64,000 bases of DNA from Rhizophagus irregularis (lineage: Eukaryota; Glomeromycota; Glomeromycetes; Glomerales; Glomeraceae): NCBI RefSeq assembly GCF_026210795.1, contig NC_089443.1, forward strand, positions 4,340,001 through 4,404,000. Direction: 5' to 3'. The position numbers and the translations under genes are program-made. This document shows, one piece after another, positions 16,399 to 61,850 of the stretch; the first letter of the stretch is position 1, and each line of letters begins with the position of its first letter. Under the pieces are notes generated by a model. It did not search any database. It saw only the letters and a list, made by a program, of their open reading frames with translations, and was not told the origin of the DNA.

Positions 16399-17317
16399 TA
16401 CACTTCAATAAAAATAAATATGGTGATTTTTTTCTTTAAAATCGTAAATGTGTGATTTAAATTTTAATATTTGTCAAATAAAATTTCATTAAATAAATAA
16501 TTATCATTATTGATGTTTATCAAAAGTTAATATGCTGACTGCCAGTTCTTATAACGGGTACCCGCCATTTCTTATAACAGGTACCCACCATTTCTTATAG
16601 TGGGTACCCACCCTTTATTATAGCAGGTACCCGCCATTTCTTATAACAGGTACCCATTTCTTATAATGGGTACCCATCATAATATATAACGTATATAACG
16701 CTATGAAATATAGCATATTAAACGCTATTTTTTGCAACAGGTTACCCTGAAACAGACAGAACAGGGGTAACCCACCGTGAAATGTAACGTATATGCACTA
16801 CAAAACATAGCGTATACACGCTATGTTTTGCTACGCACTTTTGACCATGGCGGCTTTCCATACACTAACTCACCATAAACGTATCTATATAGTGGCATTT
16901 TTGCATTACTTGCATTATGCCACCACCCGCAGCCATCTTTAAAAATCAAAAATTACTCAAACTTTTTATATGTCCACCTTCTTACTTCATAACAAAATTT
17001 GAAATGAGCACTATTGTACTGGTGCTTGATACTCTCAAAAGAAATGTGAAAGTGAAAAAAACAAATATTAGTTTTTTAGCTAATAATGATCAACAAGAAA
17101 GTTGTATTTTTATAATTTAGTGATACCATCGATGTAATGATGTAACGTCATCATAACGTCATAACGCCTAATTAAATATATTTGGAACTAAAACCTGAAA
17201 ATTGGTATCTGCATTTTGCATAGATAATATTACACAAACACTATATATGCTCGAATAAAGGAGTTTAATTATTTTTACCCTATTTTTTAGGAAGAATTCC
17301 AATAAAATTATTTAGTA

Positions 17318-20300
17318 ATGGCTCAAAGTAACGAAGGTAAAAGCATATAATATGAATATAGATATTTAATACAAGTCGAAATTATTCTAAAATTTTTTCA
17401 AACCAATTTGCAACATAATGAAACTAGTTTCAAAAATTGAGAAAGATAAAGGTAAGAAAATTACTTAATAGCTTGCTAATTATAAACGTATAACTATTTC
17501 TAAAAATTATTTTTACTATATTAACTATATTAGCTTGTAAGTAATAGATTATCTTATAATCGGAATGATAAATGATAATTAAATTACTTCTATTATTTTA
17601 TATAACTAAATAACTTATTTTATTATTTAATATTATTATAGTTGGTAAGTTAATAGCAATTTTTTTATTGTATTTTACATGATATTTTAAATAACTAAAT
17701 TTTCTATTAATATAATTGTTTAATAATTATGGTACTAATATTATAGAAAGTAAGTAATTAATTTTATATTAATTTAAAAGTATTATATATAATTTAAACT
17801 AATAATAATATTTATTTAAATAATTAGATTGTAAGTTACTGTATATATAATATATTTAATTTTTATATACAATTATCTAATTGATTATAATTACTTTACT
17901 TTATAATTATTATTAATTAATAATGTTACAGGGTGTAAGTTATTTATTTAGTCTATTATATTTATATAATATTTACATATAATTTAAACTAACTAAATTC
18001 TTTATTTAAAAAATTATTTTCTAATTTCTTTTAGTTGGTAAGTTATAAGTTATTTATTTAATTCTATTATATTTATATAATATTTACATATAATTTAAAC
18101 TAACTAAATTCTTTATTTAAAAAATTATTTTCTAATTTCTTTTAGTTGGTAAGTTATAAGTTATTTATTTAATTCTATTATATTTATATAATATTTACAT
18201 ATAATTTAAACTAACTAAATTCTTTATTTAAAAAATTATTCAAATATTTTAGCATGTGAGTAATTCTATTATATTTATATAATATTTACATACAATTTAA
18301 ACTAACTAAATTCTTTATTTAATAACTTAGTTCGTAAGTTATTTATTTAATTCTATTATATTTATATAATATTTACATATAATTTAAACTAACTAAATTC
18401 TTTATTTAAAAAATTATTTATTTAATAATATAGGGAGTATGTTATTTATTTAATTCTATTATATTTATATAATATTTACATATAATTTAAACTAACTAAA
18501 TTCTTTATTTAAAAAATTATTTATTTAATAATATAGGGAGTATGTTATTTATTTAATTCTATTATATTTATATAATATTTACATATAATTTAAACTAACT
18601 AAATTCTTTATTTAAAAAATTATTCAAATATTTTAGAACGTAAGTAATTCTATTATATTTATATAATATTTACATATAATTTAAACTAACTAAATTCTTT
18701 ATTTAAAAAATTATTTATTTAATAATATAGGGAGTATGTTATTTATTTAATTCTATTATATTTATATAATATTTACATATAATTTAAACTAACTAAATTC
18801 TTTATTTAAAAAATCATTCAAATATTTTAGATTGTAAGTAATTCTATTATATTTATATAATATTTACATATAATTTAAACTAACTAAATTCTTTATTTAA
18901 AAAATTATTTATTTAATAATATAGGGAGTATGTTATTTATTTAATTCTATTATATTTATATAATATTTACATATAATTTAAACTAACTAAATTCTTTATT
19001 TAAAAAATTATTCAAATATTTTAGAACGTAAGTAATTCTATTATATTTATATAATATTTACATATAATTTAAACTAACTAAATTCTTTATTTAAAAAATT
19101 ATTTATTTAATAATATAGGGAGTATGTTATTTATTTAATTCTATTATATTTATATAATATTTACATATAATTTAAACTAACTAAATTCTTTATTTAAAAA
19201 ATTATTAAAATATTTTAGATAGTAAGTAATTCTATTATATTTATATAATATTTACATATAATTTAAACTAACTAAATTCTTTATTTAAAAAATTATTTAT
19301 TTAATAATATAGGGAGTATGTTATTTATTTAATTCTATTATATTTATATAATATTTACATATAATTTAAACTAACTAAATTCTTTATTTAAAAAATTATT
19401 TTCTAATTTCTTTTAGTTGGTAAGTTATAAGTTATTTATTTAATTCTATTATATTTATATAATATTTACATATAATTTAAACTAACTAAATTCTTTATTT
19501 AAAAAATTATTCAAATATTTTAGATCGTAAGTAATGCTATTATATTTATATAATATTTACATATAATTTAAACTAACTAAATTCTTTATTTAAAAAATTA
19601 TTTATTTAATAATATAGGGAGTATGTTATTTATTTAATTCTATTATATTTATATAATATTTACATATAATTTAAACTAACTAAATTCTTTATTTAAAAAA
19701 TTATTCAAATATTTTAGATTGTAAGTAATTCTATTATATTTATATAATATTTACATGTAATTTAAACTAACTAAATTCTTTATTTAAAAAATTATTTTCT
19801 AATTTCTTTTAGTTGGTAAGTTATAAGTTATTTATTTAATTCTATTATATTTATATAATATTTACATATAATTTAAACTAACTAAATTCTTTATTTAAAA
19901 AATTATTCAAATATTTTAGAACGTAAGTAATTCTATTATATTTATATAATATTTACATATAATTTAAACTAACTAAATTCTTTATTTAAAAAATTATTCA
20001 AATATTTTAGAACGTAAGTAATTCTATTATATTTATATAATATTTACATATAATTTAAACTAACTAAATTCTTTATTTAAAAAATTATTCAAATATTTTA
20101 GATTGTAAGTAATTCTATTATATTTATATAATATTTACATATAATTTAAACTAACTAAATTCTTTATTTAAAAAATTATTTATTTAATAATATAGGGAGT
20201 ATGTTATTTATTTAATTCTATTATATTTATATAATATTTACATATAATTTAAACTAACTAAATTCTTTATTTAAAAAATCATTCAAATATTTTAGATTGT

Positions 20301-23300
20301 AAGTAATTCTATTATATTTATATAATATTTACATATAATTTAAACTAACTAAATTCTTTATTTAAAAAATTATTCAAATATTTTAGATTGTAAGTAATTC
20401 TATTATATTTATATAATATTTACATATAATTTAAACTAACTAAATTCTTTATTTAAAAAATTATTAAAATATTTTAGATAGTAAGTAATTCTATTATATT
20501 TATATAATATTTACATATAATTTAAACTAACTAAATTCTTTATTTAAAAAATTATTAAAATATTTTAGATAGTAAGTAATTCTATTATATTTATATAAAT
20601 ATTTACATATAATTTAAACTAACTAAATTCTTTATTTAAAAAATTATTTTCTAATTTCTTTTAGTTGGTAAGTTATAAGTTATTTATTTAATTCTATTAT
20701 ATTTATATAATATTTACATATAATTTAAACTAACTAAATTCTTTATTTAAAAAATTATTTTCTAATTTCTTTTAGTTGGTAAGTTATAAGTTATTTATTT
20801 AATTCTATTATATTTATATAATATTTACAACTAACTAAATTCTTTATTTAAAAAATTATTTATTTAATAATATAGGGAGTATGTTATTTATTTAATTCTA
20901 TTATATTTATATAATATTTACATATAATTTAAACTAACTAAATTCTTTATTTAAAAAATTATTTTCTAATTTCTTTTAGTTGGTAAGTTATAAGTTATTA
21001 TATACTATTTAAAATTTAAATTTATTAATTATTTATTATATTAAAATCTTACAATTTTATTCAGAGTAAGTATAATTAATATTATTTAATATTTAAATTT
21101 TTTTAATTGTAAATTTTATTTTAAATTTTAAATTTTAATATAATTTCATTTTTATATTTAAAGATTTGGTACTAGTGGAAGTAAAATTGTGGATCAATTT
21201 ATTTCCAAAAATGAATTAAAATGGATTCCTTATAATACCTTTAAAAATATTGAATATCTTGATAAAGGAGGATTTGGTACTATATATGAAGCTGAATTTT
21301 ATAGTATTAAAGTAATCCTTAAATCTTTTAATCATCTTAATAATTTAGATGAATGTTTAAATGAATTTTTAAATGAAGTATGATTAAATATTATTTTTTT
21401 TTAATACTATGATTTAGTTATACTAATTTACTAATAAATATTATTTATTATAGTGGAAAATTATTGATTCATATGAAATTATTAGAATATATGGATTTAC
21501 AAAAGATCCAGATACTTTGAATTATGTATTAATAATGGAATATACAAATAAGAATAGTTTAAACAGATGTTTAACAGAAATAACAAAAAATTGGGAACAA
21601 AAATTATTTTGTTTATATCAAATTATTAAGGGGCTTAATAATATTCATGAAAAAGATCTTATTCATTATAACTTTCATAATGGTAATATTTTATGTAACA
21701 AATATGAAGGAAACATATATGGAATTTTTATTAGTGATTATTTAGGATTATATCAACTTGCAAAATCTTTTTTAAAAGAAAATGATATCTTTGGAGTTTT
21801 ACCATTTATAGCACCTGAAATTTTAAAAGGTCAACCTTATACTCAAGCTAGTGATATATATAGTTTTTCTATAATTATGTGGGAATTTACATCTAAAATT
21901 CTACCATTTAATGATAAAGCACATGATCTTCAGCTTGCTTTAAGTATTTGTAAAGGTGAACGTCCTGAAATTATTGAAAATACTCCACAATGTTATATAG
22001 ATTTAATGAAAAAATGCTGGGATGAAGATCCATTAAAAAGGCCATCTTCTAAAGAAATTTTAAATATTATTGAAAGTTGGATTTTTCGTCCTGAGAATAA
22101 GAAAATTGAAGATATTAATGAAGAATTAAAAAGCAATATTATGGAATTTATAAATGCACCAATTGAGCATAATAACCTTATTGTAGAATCTCATCCAAAA
22201 GCATGCTATACAAGTCATTTATTTGATTTTACTAGTAAAGAATTAAATGAAATTCTAGAAGGTTCTCAAAGATTTCTTGAATTAAAACAAAAATATCAAA
22301 GTTCTCAAAATGAATTACAAAATATTCAAATGGAATTAGTTAATTTACAACAAAACTCAACTTTACAAAAAGATGAATTTGCAAAAAAAGTAAGTACTTT
22401 ACAAATCCAAATTACAAATCTTCAAAGTGAAAAACAAGCTTTAAATAGTAAACTGACTGAACAGTTAAAGCAAAACAGTCAGTTAAATCTAGAAAAAAAT
22501 AATCTGCAAGAAGAATTAAAATCTCAACAAAATCAATTTAAAAATCAACTAAATCAATTTCAAATTGGTTATAAGCAAATAGAGGAAGAAAATCTTAAGT
22601 TAGAAAAGATTGCTGAAACTTATTATCAAAATTCTCAAAATGAGTTAGTTAATTTACAACAAAGGAATTCTCAAACAGAAGAAGAAATTCTTAAGTTGGA
22701 AAGTGAATTATTTGATTTACAACAAAGAAATTTTAAATTTGATCAAAATAATCAAAATCTGAAGCAAAGGAATTTTGAATTTGAGCAAAATAATCAAAAT
22801 CTGAGGCTTAACTTAGCTAAACAGATTAAAGAATTTGCAGAAAGAGAAAATATTTTACAAATCCAAATTATTGACCTGCAAAATGAGAAGCAAAACTTAA
22901 CTGGCAATTTAACCAATTTAACTGAACAATTGGAACAAAATAAACTAACTAACCAGCAAGTTCAAGATCAAATCAGCCAGTTAAAGCAAGAAGAAACTAA
23001 ATTGCAAGAAAAATTAGCTCAAACAGAAGCTAATATTCAAGAATTAAAATCTCACAAAGAAAGCTTAATCAAACAAAAGGAGCAATTAGAAGTTAATTAT
23101 GAACAAATAAAGCAAGAAAGAATCAGATTGCAAAATAGAATAAGTGATCTTTTACAAGATCAAAAGCTTACTACTGAATTGAAAGCCAAGTTAGAAGAAG
23201 AAATTTCTCAATTGGAACAAAAATTAATCGTTGAAGAACAAATCAAAATGCAATTAACTCAAGCCTTACAGATTAAAGAAAATAGAATAAATGAATTAGA

Positions 23301-27049: not shown

Positions 27050-28325
27050 TATACGGACATTAATGTCCATGATATTTGTTGATGATGCTCCTTGTCAGAT
27101 ATGGCTGTGATATTTGTTGTCAATTGCTCATGATGATACTCCTTGTCAGGTACGGACATTTATGTCTGTGATATTTGTTGATGACACTCCTTGTCAGATA
27201 CGACCATGATATTTGTTGTCAATTGCTCATAATGATGCTCCTTGTCAGGTACGGACATTTATGTCCGTGATATTTGTTAATGATGCTCCTTGTCAGATAT
27301 GGTCGTGATATTTGTTGTCAATTACTCATGATGATACCCCTTGTCAGGTACAGACATTTATGTCCATGATATTTGTTGATGATGCTTCTTGTCATATATG
27401 ACCATGATATTTGTTGTCAATTGCTCGTGATGATACTACTTGTCAGGTACGAACATTTATGTTCGTGATTTTTGTTGATGATGCTCCTTGTCAGATACGA
27501 CCATGATATTTGTTGTCAATTGCTTATAATGATACTCCTTGTCAGGTATGGACATTTATGTCCGTGATATTTGTTAATGATGCTCCTTGTCATATACGAC
27601 CATGATATTTGTTGTCAATTGCTCATGATGATACTACTTGTCAGATACGGACATTTATGTCCGTAATATTTGTTGATGATGCTCCTTGTCATATACGACC
27701 ATGATATTTGTTGTCAATTGCTTATGATGATACTCCTTGTCAGGTACGGACATTTATGTCCGTAATATTTGTTAATGATGCTCCTTGTCATATATGACCA
27801 TGATATTTGTTGTCAATTGCTCATGATGATACTACTTGTCAGGTATGGACATTTATGTCCGTGATATTTATAATAACCTTTGTCAAGCACAGACATTTAT
27901 GTCCATAATATTTATGATAACCTTTGTCAAGCACAGACATTTATGTCCATGATATTTATGATAACCTTTGTCAAGCACAGACATTTATGTCCATGATATT
28001 TGTGATAACCTTTGTCAAGCACAGACATTTATGTCTGTGATATTTGTGATAACCTTTGTCAAGCAAAGTCCATGATTTTTGTTATACTTATGATAATCTT
28101 TGTCAAATACAGACATTTATGTTCGTAATATTTATTATACTTATCTTTTGTCTTATGATAACCTTTATCAAGCACAGACATTTATGTCCGTGATTTTTAT
28201 TATACTTATAATAATCTTTGTAAAGCACAGACATTTATGTCTGTGATATCTATTATGCTTATCCTTTGTCTTATGGTAGATAACCTTTGTCAAGCACAAA
28301 CATTATTTATGTCCATGATTTTTGA
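27050..28325. repeat. Left GGACATTTATGTCC tandem array
   Basis: Two unit types alternate at about 110 bases per pair up to 27860: GATGATGCTCCTTGTCAGATACG and TTGTTGTCAATTGCTCATGATG units, each carrying GATATTTGTTG. From 27860 a shorter unit (GATAACCTTTGTCAAGCACAG) repeats. Most units contain the palindrome GGACATTTATGTCC or a one-base variant. Confidence 0.8.
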
Positions 28326-31109: not shown

Positions 31110-31985
31110 CAAAAAATCAAAAATCATGGACATAAATAATGTCTGTGCTTGACAAAGGTTATTATAAGACAAAGGATAAGCATAATAAATATTACAGACA
31201 TAAATGTCTGTGCTTTACAAAGATTATCATAAATATAACAAAAATCACAGACATAAATGTCTGTGCTTGACAAAGGTTATCACAAATATCATGGACATAA
31301 ATGTCTGTACTTGACAAAGGTTATCACAAATATCATGGACATAAATGTCTGTGCTGCTTGACAAAGGTTATCATAAATATCATGGACATAAATGTCTGTG
31401 CTTGACAAAGGTTATCATAAATATCACGGACATAAATGTCTGTGCTTGACAAAGGTTATCATAAATATCACGGACATAAATGTCCGTACCTGACAAGTAG
31501 TATCATCATGAGCAATTGACAACAAATATCATGGTCGTATATGACAAGGAGCATCATTAACAAATATCACAGACATAAATGTCCGTACCTGACAAGGAGT
31601 ATCATTATAAGCAATTGACAACAAATATCATGGTCGTATCTGACAAGGAGCATCATCAACAAAAATCACGGACATAAATGTCCATACCTGACAAGTAGTA
31701 TTATCATGAGCAATTGACAACAAATATCATGGTCGTATATGACAAGAAGCATCATCAACAAATATCACGGACATAAATGTCCGTACCTGACAAGGAGCAT
31801 CATTATGAGCAATTGACAACAAATATCACGGTCATATCTGACAAGGAGCGTCATCAACACAGACATAAATGTCCGTACCTGACAAGGAGTATTATCATGA
31901 GCAATTGACAACAAATATCACAGCCATATCTGACAAGGAGCATCATCAACAAATATCATGGACATAAATGTCCGTATATGACTAT
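31110..31985. repeat. Right GGACATAAATGTCC tandem array
   Basis: Complement of the left array: TGACAAAGGTTATC units first, then TGACAAGGAGCATCATC and GAGCAATTGACAACAAATATC units. It is shorter than the left array (fewer repeats). Confidence 0.8.
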
Positions 31986-36897: not shown

Positions 36898-37199
36898 TCT
36901 AACTTTATTATATTACAAAAAAAAAAAATTTTTTTTTTAGCCTTATCAAATTTTTATTTAAAAATTATAATTGGTCGAAAACAGGTTTGTTTCATGATAC
37001 GGTTTTGGCTTAATTAATAATAAAAATAATAATATTTTTGCAACTTACTCGTAAAAATGAAACATTATTGCGAAGAATTCTAAATAATTTGTTCATAAAT
37101 TAATTTTCCACATAATTTACAATCTATTCTACTTTCAATAATTTTTTTCATAATCACAAAATCTATTATTATTTGTATTATTTGTATATTTTATCAAAG

Positions 37200-37944
37200 A
37201 ACAAAATTGTAGTGCAAATTTTTCTGAGTATAAGCTATGTTCAAATTGCTATAAAATTTCTTTTGAATGTGTTAAATCAACTTTGATTGAAAAAACCATT
37301 CCAATTCTTCATTTACCATGGTGGGATGCTTATAATCAATGTATAGTTTGTAATAAACTCCTTGAATTCGAAGGTGATTGTCAGAAATTGTGTTCAAGCT
37401 GCTTTATATTTTATACTGGATGTAGATATTGTTTGACAACAAATATTATTTTTGGATATACAAACCAATCTAAATGTAGTAAATGTAAAAGAATTTTTAT
37501 TATTGAAATCAGTGGAAATTATAATATTGACAAATTTTTATATTTTACAAATGTTGATAATAATGATAAATATAATGAAATTTCTAATTATGTTAATAAT
37601 ATTAACAAAAATTCTAATCCGTTAAATATATATGGTTTTATTCGATATGAGTTTGATTATCACTCTACAAAACCGAAAATAAAATGGGTTTCATATTCAC
37701 AAATTAATATTTTAAAAAAAATAGCAGAAGGAGGATTTGGTATTATTTATAAAGCTTTAATTAATGGTGACGTTGTTGTTATAAAAAAAATTTTAATTTT
37801 CTAAATGAGGTAATTAATTTTCAAAATTTATATTTTTAAAAAATATCTATATAATATACTAATTTGAACTATGAAATTTTAGTTAAAATCACTTTATCAA
37901 TGTTATGATAGTAAATTTGAATGTATTATTAAATGTCATGGTAT
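37200..37944 (+). pseudogene. Protein kinase gene, 5' part (Cys-rich module plus kinase start)
   Basis: An open exon starts after an AG at 37198-37199 and runs to a GT donor at 37810. It first encodes Cys pairs (CSNC, CIVC, CSSCF, CRYC, CSKC), consistent with zinc-binding ribbons, around LPWWDAYNQC. It then reads WVSYSQINILKKIAEGGFGIIYKA, a kinase glycine loop. At 37782-37789 a run of eight A's puts the frame into a stop (TAA 37802); a ninth A would give KKNFNFLNE before the donor, so one base is missing or misread. The next exon (37883) encodes LKSLYQCYDSKFECIIKCHG and is cut at 37944 by Gypsy A. The remainder is at 60767-61850. The first exon was not found. Confidence 0.75.
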
Positions 37945-53611: not shown

Positions 53612-53671
53612 AAATATAGAACACATAACGAAAATAACAAATTTAGAAGTAGAATAAATTAAGGAAATATT

Positions 53672-54898
53672 ATGGAAGAAAATAATTACAAAAGAATAAT
53701 AAACAATATCGAAAAAGAGAATAAATACGAATTGAAAGAGGGAATTTTATATAGAGTGAAAGGACAAAACAAATTTAGAGTAATCAGGGATTATGAATAC
53801 GAGGGATTGATGTACATGATGCATGATAATGAATTATCAGGGCATTTTGAAATGGAAGCGACATTAGATAGAATAAAAGAAGACTATTGGTGGAAAAATA
53901 TGAAAGAAGATGTAGAAGAATATGTAAGAACGTGTTGGAATTGTCAGATGAGAGGAAAACCAAGAGGAAAGAACGAATTAACGTCAATAAAGATAAATGA
54001 ACCATTTGAAATGATTGGGATAGATATAGTTGGACCACTAAAAGAGACAGAAAAGGGGAATAAGTACATTGTAGTAGCAATGGATTATTTTACAAAATGG
54101 CCCGAGGCCGCACCACTAAAAGAAGCTACAGCAAAAGAGGTAGTAGAATTTATTTGGAGAGACATAATTTGTAGACATGGATGTCCAAAGAAAATAATTA
54201 GCGATAGAGGGACTCACTTTAACAATAGAATGATGGAAGAATTAGTAGAAAGATGTGGGATAAATCATAGATTAAGTACACCATATAGGCCACAAACAAA
54301 TGGTTTGGTCGAAAGATTCAATAAAACTTTATGCGAAGGATTAGCCAAATTAGGAGAAGAAAATTGGGATAAACATATACCATCTGTACTATTTGCATAT
54401 AGAACAAAGAAGCAATCATCAACGAAGATTAAACCTTTTTATGCGACATACGGAAGGAGAGCAAAACTACCATTAGATAAAGATGAAAACAAGATAACAT
54501 TAGCTGACAGAGTAAAAACATTAATCGAGGAGCTACCAGTAATAAGAAGGAAAATAAAAGAGAACGTGGAAGAAGCTCAAGAAAAACAAAAACAACAACA
54601 TGACAAAAGAGGAATTAGAAAACCTAAATTTGAAATAGGAGAAAAAGTATTATTATATGAAGCGTGGAGAGAAAAACAATGGTCTGGAAAATTACAGAAC
54701 AAATGGAAAGGACCATATTTAATTCACGAAGAATTTGGAAATGGGGCTTATAAACTCAAAGAATTGGACGGAAGAATACTAAAGACACCACAAAATGGAG
54801 AATGGTTAAAGAAATTTTATGATCGAGGGAGATTTATATCAAAAATAGTAATTAAAGGAAAAGAGGTATTCGATAAGACCCGAGTTCAATTCGATTAG
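53672..54898 (+). CDS. Gypsy B integrase (408 residues, intact)
   Basis: Inserts element cDNA into the genome. Residues about 50-92 hold an H2C2 zinc-binding motif (HDNELSGH and CWNC). The DDE core follows: Asp in IGIDIVGP, Asp in ISDRGTHF, Glu in NGLVERFNKTL. The C-terminal part ends with KGPYLIHEEFGNGAYKLKEL, a GPY/F-type module; no chromodomain seen. In the same frame as the preceding ORF but separated by two TAA codons, so it is translated from its own ATG or made from a different RNA. About 40% of its residues look shared with the Gypsy A integrase by eye, so the two elements are related but distinct. Confidence 0.92.
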   Translation: MEENNYKRIINNIEKENKYELKEGILYRVKGQNKFRVIRDYEYEGLMYMMHDNELSGHFEMEATLDRIKEDYWWKNMKEDVEEYVRTCWNCQMRGKPRGKNELTSIKINEPFEMIGIDIVGPLKETEKGNKYIVVAMDYFTKWPEAAPLKEATAKEVVEFIWRDIICRHGCPKKIISDRGTHFNNRMMEELVERCGINHRLSTPYRPQTNGLVERFNKTLCEGLAKLGEENWDKHIPSVLFAYRTKKQSSTKIKPFYATYGRRAKLPLDKDENKITLADRVKTLIEELPVIRRKIKENVEEAQEKQKQQHDKRGIRKPKFEIGEKVLLYEAWREKQWSGKLQNKWKGPYLIHEEFGNGAYKLKELDGRILKTPQNGEWLKKFYDRGRFISKIVIKGKEVFDKTRVQFD

Positions 54899-57067: not shown

Positions 57068-58438
57068 CAGCAATTTCATGAATTCATAAAAAAATATAAT
57101 AATCTGTTTGCGTGGAACTCAAACGATTTCGGTCGAACATCAGTGGTTACACACACTATCGATACCGGAGGTGCGACCCCCATCAAGCAAAGATTTTACC
57201 GGACGTCACATCAGAATCAGTTGTTCATCAAAGAGGAAATACAACGACTCTTGGAGGCCGGTCTAATTGTGCCATCAAGTAGTCAATGGACTTCTCCCGT
57301 GGTTGTAGTAGAAAAAAAGAACGGGAAGAAGCTCCTTTGTGTGGATTATCGGAAACTCAACAAGGTCACTAAAAAGGATTGCTATCCTTTACCACGAATA
57401 GACGATATGTTGGAGACATTATCAGGATCTCGATGGTTCTCGTCCTTAGACCTTGCCAGTGGCTTTTGGCAGGTCGAATTGGACCCAAAAGATCGAGAAA
57501 AATCAACGTTCATCACCAGGTTCAGGACGTATAAGTTTACTGTGATGCCTTTTGGCCTCTGTAACGCTCCCGCAACCTTTCAACATCTAATGGATATGGT
57601 GTTACAAGACATTCTTTGGCAGTTCACGGTAGTATACATCGACGATATTAATGTAGGGTCGAAAACCTTCGAAGAGCATTTGGTGCATCTGGAACAGGTT
57701 TTCTCACGTCTAGAGAAGGCCGGTTTAAAATTAAGTCCTGAGAAGTGTTTCTTTTTTAAAGAAGAACTTCCTTTCCTAGGACATGTGGTGAGCCGAAAAG
57801 GCATCCATACCGATCCTGAAAAATTACGCACCATCAACGAATTTCCCATTCCGAAAGACTTAACGCAATTAAGGGAATTCATTGCGCTGGCCTCGTATTA
57901 CCGGAAGTTCGTGAAGAACTTCTCGTCTATCGTTGAACCGTTGAATAGGTTATTAAAGAAAAATATCCCGTATATTTGGGATAAAGATCAACAAGCCGCA
58001 TTTGAAAAATTAAAGACTTGTTTAACAACGCCACCTATATTGGCGTATCCTGATTTCGAAAAACCGTTCTTGTTATATACTGACGCCTCTACTTTTGCGT
58101 TGGGCGCAATATTATCCCAAAAGGATGACGATAAAAAAGAACGCGTCATTGCTTATGCGAGCCGGACTCTAAATAAGCATGAACGGAACTATAGTGTCAT
58201 GGAACTGGAGTGTCTTGCGGTTATATGGGCCGTCAAGCACTTTCATCATTATTTGCACGGACAACGATTTACCGTTGTAACTGATCACGCCGCTTTAAGG
58301 TATTTAATGAACATGTCGAACCCTGTTGGTAAGCTCGGAAGATGGTTGATGACTCTTAACGGATATGATTTGGAAATAGTTAACCACCCCGGAAAACAAC
58401 ACACCAACGTCGATACACTAAGCCGAATAAGAGTTTAA
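57068..58438 (+). pseudogene. Gypsy A reverse transcriptase and RNase H
   Basis: Same frame as the protease. Starts FHEFIKKYNNLFAW; RT motifs in order: VEKKNGKKLLCVDYRKLN, SLDLASGFWQVELD, MPFGLCNAPATFQ, catalytic VVYIDDINV (about 57635), LGHVVSRKGI. RNase H acidic residues are present in YTDASTFALGA, NYSVMELECLAV and VTDHAALRYL, and the end reads NVDTLSRIRV before TAA 58436-58438. All key residues are intact; only the upstream TAA separates it from gag-pol. Enzyme for cDNA synthesis of Gypsy A and possibly, in trans, for Gypsy B. Confidence 0.92.
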
Positions 58439-60766: not shown

Positions 60767-61850
60767 CACAAAAGATCCTATAACAAAAGAACTTATGTTT
60801 ATAATGAAATATGCAAATGGAGGGGATTTACATAATTATTTACAAGAGAATTTTACAGAGATTACATGGAAGAAAAAATTGCACATTTTGTGGCGAATTT
60901 CAGATGGGTATTTATAACTTAATTTAATTAATAATGATTTTGAAATTATTTAAATAAAATTTTATTAATAATCAATTTTTTATTTTAGACTTCAAACTAT
61001 TCATGAAAAAGATTTCGTACATCGAGATTTTCATAGTGGAAATATATTGATTGAAATAATTGAAAATGATTCATGCAAAATAGATCAATATCTAATCGGA
61101 GATTTAGGATTATCACAGCCTGCAAATGACATTCCACATGATAGCAGTATATATGGAGTAATACCTTATATTGCACCAGAAATATTTAAGGGCGTCAAAT
61201 TTTCTAAATCATCTGATATTTATTGTATGGGCATGATTATGTGGGAATTAACAACTGGTTGTAAACCTTTTGATAATGTTGAACATGATATTGATTTAAT
61301 TTATAAAATTATTGATGGAAAACGGCCTAATATTACTGACGACACTCCCGAAGATTTTGCTAATTTAATGAAAAGATGTTGGAATCCTGATCCTAAAATG
61401 AGACCTTCAGCAACTGATGTTTGTGAAATTTTTAATTCTTGGTCAAATATGGGAATGGATGCCGAATATTTTAATCAAGCTGAAGAAATAAGATTAGAAT
61501 TTATAAAATTAAAAATGCTTGGACCAGATTTTAATGAAAAACCTCATCCAAAAGCAATTTATACAAGCAGATCATTAAGTTCTTTAACCGGTTCACCTTC
61601 AATTTTAACGTTTAATACGAAACCAAGTATGTAATCATTATTTTTTATATAAATTTGGACAATATTACAACATTTTAAAATTTAATAATTATTATCATCT
61701 TAGATAATAGACTTATTGAAGAATCAATCAACAATAAAGGTATTAAGTTATTTTTTTTAATCTGTACATTAAGGAATTTATTAATTACTTGATTTTTTTT
61801 CTTTAGAATATATTACAAAAGAATATGAGTTTGATATAAACGAAATTTAA
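60767..61850 (+). pseudogene. Protein kinase gene, 3' part (after Gypsy A)
   Basis: Resumes the interrupted exon (GITKDPITKELMFIMKYANG). Exons to 60907, 60989-61626, 61704-61739, 61807-61850, GT-AG introns in frame. Kinase motifs are complete: HRDFHSGN catalytic loop, GDLGLSQP (Asp of DFG), YIAPEIFKG, SDIYCMGMIMWEL, CWNPDPKMRP. The tail reads EYITKEYEFDINEI and stop at 61848-61850, with HPKAIYTSRSL before it, as also seen in the 17-24 kb kinase (HPKACYTSHLF). Before the insertion this would have been an active Ser/Thr or Tyr-like kinase. Now an RNA from the upstream part would enter the LTR. Confidence 0.88.

Follow-up and report, generated by a model that had tools for sequence, protein, structure and literature searches.

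Rows of codon-sized exons have been described in a fungus before. The ascomycete Tuber melanosporum is reported to have an expanded NACHT-ANK (nank) family of NLR genes with codon-sized, 3-bp mini-exons that are alternatively spliced, an observation credited to Iotti et al. 2012 (PMC4986451, PMC9815663, PMC10197012), and the number of these mini-exons is given as dozens (PMC9815663). The MEG genes of Schistosoma encode secreted proteins from 10–20 exons of 6–81 bp (3–81 bp in the abstract), mostly 15 bp, separated by introns of 0.1–5 kb (PMC10526429). Exons of a single nucleotide (nt) have been reported in plant APC11 and VPS55 (PMC8831610, PMC4674806) and in Fusarium CYP621A (PMC12940212), and a 3-bp exon in Drosophila homothorax (PMC7392893); these cases show that exons of 1 and 3 nt can be spliced, and as reported they occur singly, not as arrays. 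The subject here is a gene in a 64,000-nt stretch of the genome of Rhizophagus irregularis, an arbuscular mycorrhizal soil fungus associated with plant roots (contig NC_089443.1, positions 4,340,001 to 4,404,000 of the forward strand; "the window" below means the whole of this stretch), in which a row of 36 predicted three-base exons, or triplets, leads into a kinase-like coding region.

We consider it highly likely that this array is a true coding region, in which 36 separate, intron-defined and normally included exons would encode a variable 37-residue segment, read in phase 1, ahead of a predicted pseudokinase, with codon cassettes exchanged by recombination. The exons, their phase, the translation signature, the family and the exon-specific variability are shown by the genome sequence. 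The locus resembles the Tuber NACHT-ANK genes, as these have been reported, in its dozens of codon-sized exons, its membership of an expanded fungal gene family and the proposed diversification of a recognition domain. There are also clear differences. Those accounts concern ascomycete NLR genes in which the mini-exons lie in a variable, C-terminal recognition part diversified by alternative splicing, whereas the R. irregularis arrays are in Glomeromycotina, lie at the N-terminus of a kinase-like protein ahead of the kinase domain, and show a signature of full inclusion and a diversity of unit classes encoded in the genome. The NACHT and ankyrin domains of the Tuber proteins are absent from the window protein, in which Pfam detects only PF07714 and PF00069. 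The likeness to the Schistosoma MEG genes lies in the succession of very short exons, with lengths mostly divisible by three, and in the variable proteins, but the Rhizophagus exons are of 3 bp, their introns are mostly 75–110 nt, and there are up to 120 of them. An earlier note on this DNA knew of no description of dozens of such exons in a row; the Tuber genes are one, and the category is therefore already known. What differs is the phylum, the gene family, the position in the protein, the evidence for full inclusion and the anatomy of the unit classes, and a literature search, with most subscription papers beyond its coverage, found no account of such arrays in Rhizophagus.

Splice sites and the avoidance of stop codons

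The 36 triplets lie between 17534–17536 and 20980–20982, each with the arrangement AG-NNN-GT(AAG/ATG/GAG)T and separated by introns of 75–108 nt, just as the earlier note had described them. Its reading of them in phase 1 is also borne out by the model of the window gene: the joined triplets run from AFENWFVAF to YYNIVGIE and into FGTSGSKIVDQF without a stop, and the gene joined from all its exons has an uninterrupted frame of 978 codons (2937 nt with the stop codon). That note's picture of a gene start written as a row of triplets stands for the 36 exons but is incomplete, as a 24-base exon 2 and a 1-base exon 'A' (21065) had gone unmentioned; the latter is needed because the triplets must reach the frame of the kinase. 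The sequence AGNNNGTAAGT occurs 27 times on the two strands of the window, and 26 of these copies are inside the array, where dinucleotide shuffles expect 1.23 copies in total and the largest shuffle gave 4.

Related arrays were examined at 31 loci, a number that includes the window and joins adjoining stretches; the loci were picked by similarity to the array unit, exon 1 or the kinase exon and are not a random sample. Their splice signals are regular. In arrays of eight or more, the nearest AG lies exactly 3 nt upstream of 831 of 877 strong donors and 1 nt upstream of a further 33. The donors are near consensus, GTAAGT or GTATGT, and the acceptors are TTTTAG or TATAG. The motif CTAAC is present in 595 of 872 introns, at a median of 42 nt from the acceptor, and on the reverse strand in only one, although these 872 introns are related and not independent cases. 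The predicted RNA structure of two units is ordinary (z 0.11).

In phase 1 each codon consists of the last base of one triplet and the first two of the next, and because it straddles two exons a triplet ending in T must not precede one of the form AA., AG. or GA. if the product is to stay open. Expectations were obtained by shuffling the order of triplets within arrays, and a junction was counted as close if its intron is no longer than 125 nt. There are several features to the result. First, across all 31 loci a phase-1 stop arises at 1 of 940 close junctions, compared with 43.1 expected and a minimum of 27 in 2000 shuffles; the first 20 arrays have none at 741 adjacent junctions (mean 32.4, shuffle minimum 20), and ten loci retrieved once the test was already in place have none at 185 (7.8 expected). 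Second, the avoidance is confined to one phase, since in phase 2 there are 158 stops against 122.0 expected, above all 2000 shuffles. Third, it is confined to neighbours: for triplets 2–8 places apart in the 20 arrays there is no avoidance (32 against 31.2 at distance 2, and 33 against 26.5 at distance 8). Fourth, within one unit class with identical flanks, T-ending exons are followed by AA. in no case and by AT. in 36, whereas other exons are followed by AA. in 142 and by AT. in 92. Finally, wide junctions give a stop in 1 of 66 cases; this apparent stop, in locus L039, spans two missed weak-donor units (gap 290) and is outside the 940 close junctions. The claim that the triplets are real exons in phase 1 is thus supported by stop avoidance throughout the family.

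These patterns bear directly on how the array might otherwise be understood. It is possible, though unlikely, that the triplets are included or skipped in combinations to give many isoforms per gene, as has been claimed for the T. melanosporum NACHT-ANK genes (PMC4986451, PMC9815663, PMC10197012), and any subset of 3-nt exons, or the skipping of the whole array, would keep the frame. Skip junctions at distances 2–8, however, show no avoidance of stops while adjacent ones avoid them almost completely, which points to regular inclusion of the called triplets and to full inclusion as the selected main product. There is room for minor isoforms, because in the 20 arrays only 32 of 721 single skips would create a stop. 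Very unlikely, in our view, is a single long intron filled by a minisatellite with splice-like motifs, in which exons 1 and 2 join the 1-nt exon or the kinase exon directly, or transcription starts near 21100. Much of the array is indeed a recent tandem repeat, with units of about 91–111 bp, and up to 194 bp, as called by TRF, so that its 36 units cannot be counted as separate events; the first five triplets fall outside the main repeat. Public protein models, too, skip the array or treat it inconsistently. But an untranslated repeat would have no reason to avoid T/AA, T/AG and T/GA in just one phase across introns of 90 nt, nor to vary mainly in the three bases that AG and GT enclose. Very unlikely as well is the suggestion that the sites are recursive-splicing or stepping points for removing a long intron, with three-base coding as a by-product: a strong donor does follow every acceptor immediately, and 3.7 kb is long next to the 91 and 76 nt of two ordinary introns in this gene, but it is the exon bases that are constrained by coding and show the exon-specific variability, and arrays of 3 to 120 called triplets present no fixed distance to cross. 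The triplets are very probably constitutively spliced in, translated and diversified.

Units, loci and gene models

The commonest unit class, selected by the flanks ATTTTAG and GTAAGTAATTC, is represented by 193 units, with non-consensus bases in 4% of copies at exon base 1, 48% at base 2 and 42% at base 3, and nearby intron positions beyond the flanks vary in about 3%. Among sixty 88-nt introns the mean variation is 0.016, or about 0.020 when the 17 positions fixed by the selection are left out. Exon base 2 is A or T in 270 of 280 units and G or C in the other 10, and a change between A and T at this base is non-synonymous in phase 1. The other two unit classes are less variable (TTG in 36 of 44, GGA in 64 of 76). 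Such variability in the exons may reflect diversifying selection, or old alternatives kept while the introns homogenise; we read both as selection on the protein.

Within the same genome there are at least 695 matches to the array unit, at least 40 to the exon 1 region (17300–17460) and at least 45 to the region of the 1-nt exon and kinase exon 1 (20985–21380), all three counts being lower bounds. At least 11 triplets were called in 29 of the 31 loci, with a range from 3 to 120; the count for L016+L017 is the sum over three separated arrays, and totals include the two low-count loci L020 (6 triplets) and L038 (3). The counts for the first 20 arrays leave out any cluster with under five strict sites and any site less than 55 nt from the previous one, and relaxed donors filled gaps there; for L029–L041 only five donor hexamers were used and sites less than 60 nt from the previous one were dropped. 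The pair ATT GGT is present near the start of the array in 24 of the 31 loci, and the opening triplets CTC TTG AAA ATT GGT, with variants, are common even to relatives about 75% identical at exon 1, which likewise carry arrays. The 1-nt exon ahead of the kinase exon recurs across paralogs, and an open model running from the ATG through exon 2, the triplets and the 1-base exon into the kinase is found in 12 of 28 loci. Exon 2 is longer in the divergent relatives L029, L034 and L037 (120, 99 and 120 nt), with short repeats of the type EFEGSGSEEFKGSDSE. A short-array relative, L030 (C15:4318300-4320700, minus strand), lies about 37 kb from the window gene and has 11 triplets and no phase-1 stop; its kinase exon continues into unrelated sequence, and a 372-nt intron contains sequence unlike the unit.

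Several observations weigh against the main reading. First, 16 of the 28 loci lack a complete model under the patterns used; in 15 of them some part is unrecognised or outside the stretch, and in L028 every part is found but the called triplets give no open joining. Second, in some units the donor is weak or has been lost, or introns are merged. Third, the last three loci give a weaker result (2 stops at 80 junctions against 5.7 expected, with 108 of 5000 permutations as low); of these two stops one is the L039 case above, and the other is a real adjacent stop in L040, where ATT is followed by AGA across an intron of 90 nt. Fourth, junctions are made non-independent by tandem duplication; the avoidance nevertheless persists when each locus and pair type is counted once, with 0/177 as against 125/461 before L039–L041. 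Fifth, introns are not uniform, as two positions vary at 12% and 23%. Finally, public models are inconsistent over the array.

Table 1. Exons of the kinase-like gene in the window (positions are those of the window).
Feature	Position	Strand	Remarks
Exon 1	17318..17336	+	ATGGCTCAAAGTAACGAAG; MAQSNE + 1 base
Exon 2	17428..17451	+	24 nt; ..VSKIEKDK + 1 base
Microexon 1, CTT	17534..17536	+	first position is CTC in many paralogs
Microexon 2, TTG	17642..17644	+	position common to many paralogs
Microexon 3, AAA	17747..17749	+	position common to many paralogs
Microexon 4, ATT	17828..17830	+	part of ATT GGT, near the start in 24/31 loci
Microexon 5, GGT	17932..17934	+	part of ATT GGT, near the start in 24/31 loci
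Expanded array, microexons 6–36 (3 nt each)	18035..20982	+	splice-site pattern and tandem repeat structure
Microexons 6–16, first bases	18035, 18146, 18253, 18331, 18434, 18537, 18637, 18731, 18831, 18925, 19025	+	
Microexons 17–26, first bases	19119, 19219, 19313, 19417, 19524, 19618, 19718, 19813, 19920, 20011	+	
Microexons 27–36, first bases	20102, 20196, 20296, 20387, 20478, 20569, 20665, 20776, 20876, 20980	+	
1-nucleotide exon 'A'	21065..21065	+	phase 1 to phase 2; AG-N-GTRAGT at the equivalent place in many paralogs
Kinase exon 1	21164..21377	+	starts FGTSGSKIVDQF
Kinase exon 2 and long Q/E/K/L-rich, coiled-coil-like tail to the stop codon	21454..24024	+	

The kinase-like product and its relatives

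Pfam places PF07714 and PF00069 over residues 80–326 of the 978-residue window protein, PF07714 with 114.5 bits against a curated cut-off of 23.1. The product is a predicted pseudokinase because the catalytic Asp of the HRD motif is replaced (IHYNFHNGN), and the tail looks like a coiled coil when judged by eye. Among the protein matches listed the best are kinase-like proteins of Rhizophagus, and the gene shares with the Rhizophagus PF07714 expansion its kinase family and its coiled-coil-like or second-kinase tails; the array-bearing branch differs from the rest of this expansion in its N-terminal microexon array and in the loss of the HRD Asp in 14 of the 15 models compared, with LIHCDFHDGN retained in L029. 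Four of the loci (L018, L023, L028 and L012+L013) carry, downstream of the array and pseudokinase, the beginning of a second kinase domain, KIAEGGFGIIYKALINGDVVAIKK or a close variant. The public protein P0001 is likewise a tandem pseudokinase-kinase, and the window gene has its tail in place of the second kinase.

The proposed segment is in none of the 18 public models read, which were taken from the best 120 of 1112 hits. In two of the models, P0002 of R. irregularis (beginning MKKIGGNGNNNNNNNNLIF) and P0009 of R. diaphanus (beginning MLKILIGGLIIIGGIGILLIGLIPL), triplet-like residues are strung together in the wrong phase; since each model goes on to omit the first kinase exon, we attribute these starts to gene prediction and give them no weight as transcripts. 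P0009 nevertheless hints at arrays in R. diaphanus too, and a search with its start returned P0009 itself as the sole match. For residues 1–46 of the L026 model, no annotated protein among those of about 204–649 amino acids (aa) covered shares three 5-residue words; the search with the window protein covered proteins of about 234–745 aa, and with these ranges a full-length model of about 960–980 aa would be missed. Intronless copies of the N-terminus were sought in the same genome, and among the best 150 of 3369 candidates none covers query residues 1–20; some matches begin at residues 21–42, with about 48–68% identity overall, and the strong ones are to the kinase exon. One stretch, C28:1530076-1530342 (minus strand), aligns with a mixed query from within its array part, starting at residue 24; its 146-aa frame is free of stops, and it is possibly a relative with an unsplit N-terminal part.

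Two further features of the window lie away from the array. Segments 37154–37804 and 60972–61634 (plus strand) look like the halves of a single kinase-like gene, separated by about 23 kb, with the N-lobe KIKWVSYSQINILKKIAEGGFGIIYKALINGDVV and a C-lobe with an intact HRDFHSGNIL; retrotransposon-type open frames lie between them (e.g. 53663–54898 and 57068–58438), and the gene looks to have been split by insertions. Two long tandem repeat arrays, 27052–28323 and 31182–31976, are in opposite orientation about 3 kb apart, with related units GGACATTTATGTCC and CTCCTTGTCAG and their reverse complements.

A proposed mechanism and its meaning

We propose that each triplet is freed from its neighbours, about 90 nt away, by ordinary intron definition using the donor, the CTAAC branch point and the acceptor. 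Since intron definition does not depend on recognising the exon, an exon of 3 nt would be possible in this way, provided that adjacent introns are removed in turn, as 3 nt should be too short to hold two spliceosomes at once. The triplets would then be translated in phase 1 as the 37-residue variable segment ahead of the pseudokinase. As base 1 of a triplet is base 2 of a codon, the unit classes could act as cassettes for residue types, with A.. units giving polar residues, TT. units hydrophobic ones and GG. units W, R or G. Unequal crossing-over or conversion in the shared middles of the introns may add, remove or reorder single codons in frame, with selection working on the exon bases. The variable segment, which in the predicted models reaches about 120 residues, might serve as a recognition, docking or interaction surface by analogy with the fungal NLR genes. 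Taken together, these steps lead us to suggest, tentatively and with limited confidence, that receptor-like pseudokinases are diversified by codon cassettes encoded in the genome: single codons of three classes (polar, hydrophobic and W/R/G) would be duplicated, lost and reordered through shared intron cores, with the exon bases under diversifying selection, yielding N-terminal segments of about 10–120 residues, hypervariable and as a rule completely spliced, for recognition of non-self or of partners.

The coding signature, which is RNA-free, indicates that the spliceosome very probably handles up to 120 successive three-base exons, and such arrays probe the lower limit of exon recognition. 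They would extend the fungal arrays of codon-sized exons to a different phylum and gene family, which is likewise expanded and might be one of receptors. Their recurrence in expanded families of possible receptors suggests that this route to variable protein segments has been taken repeatedly.

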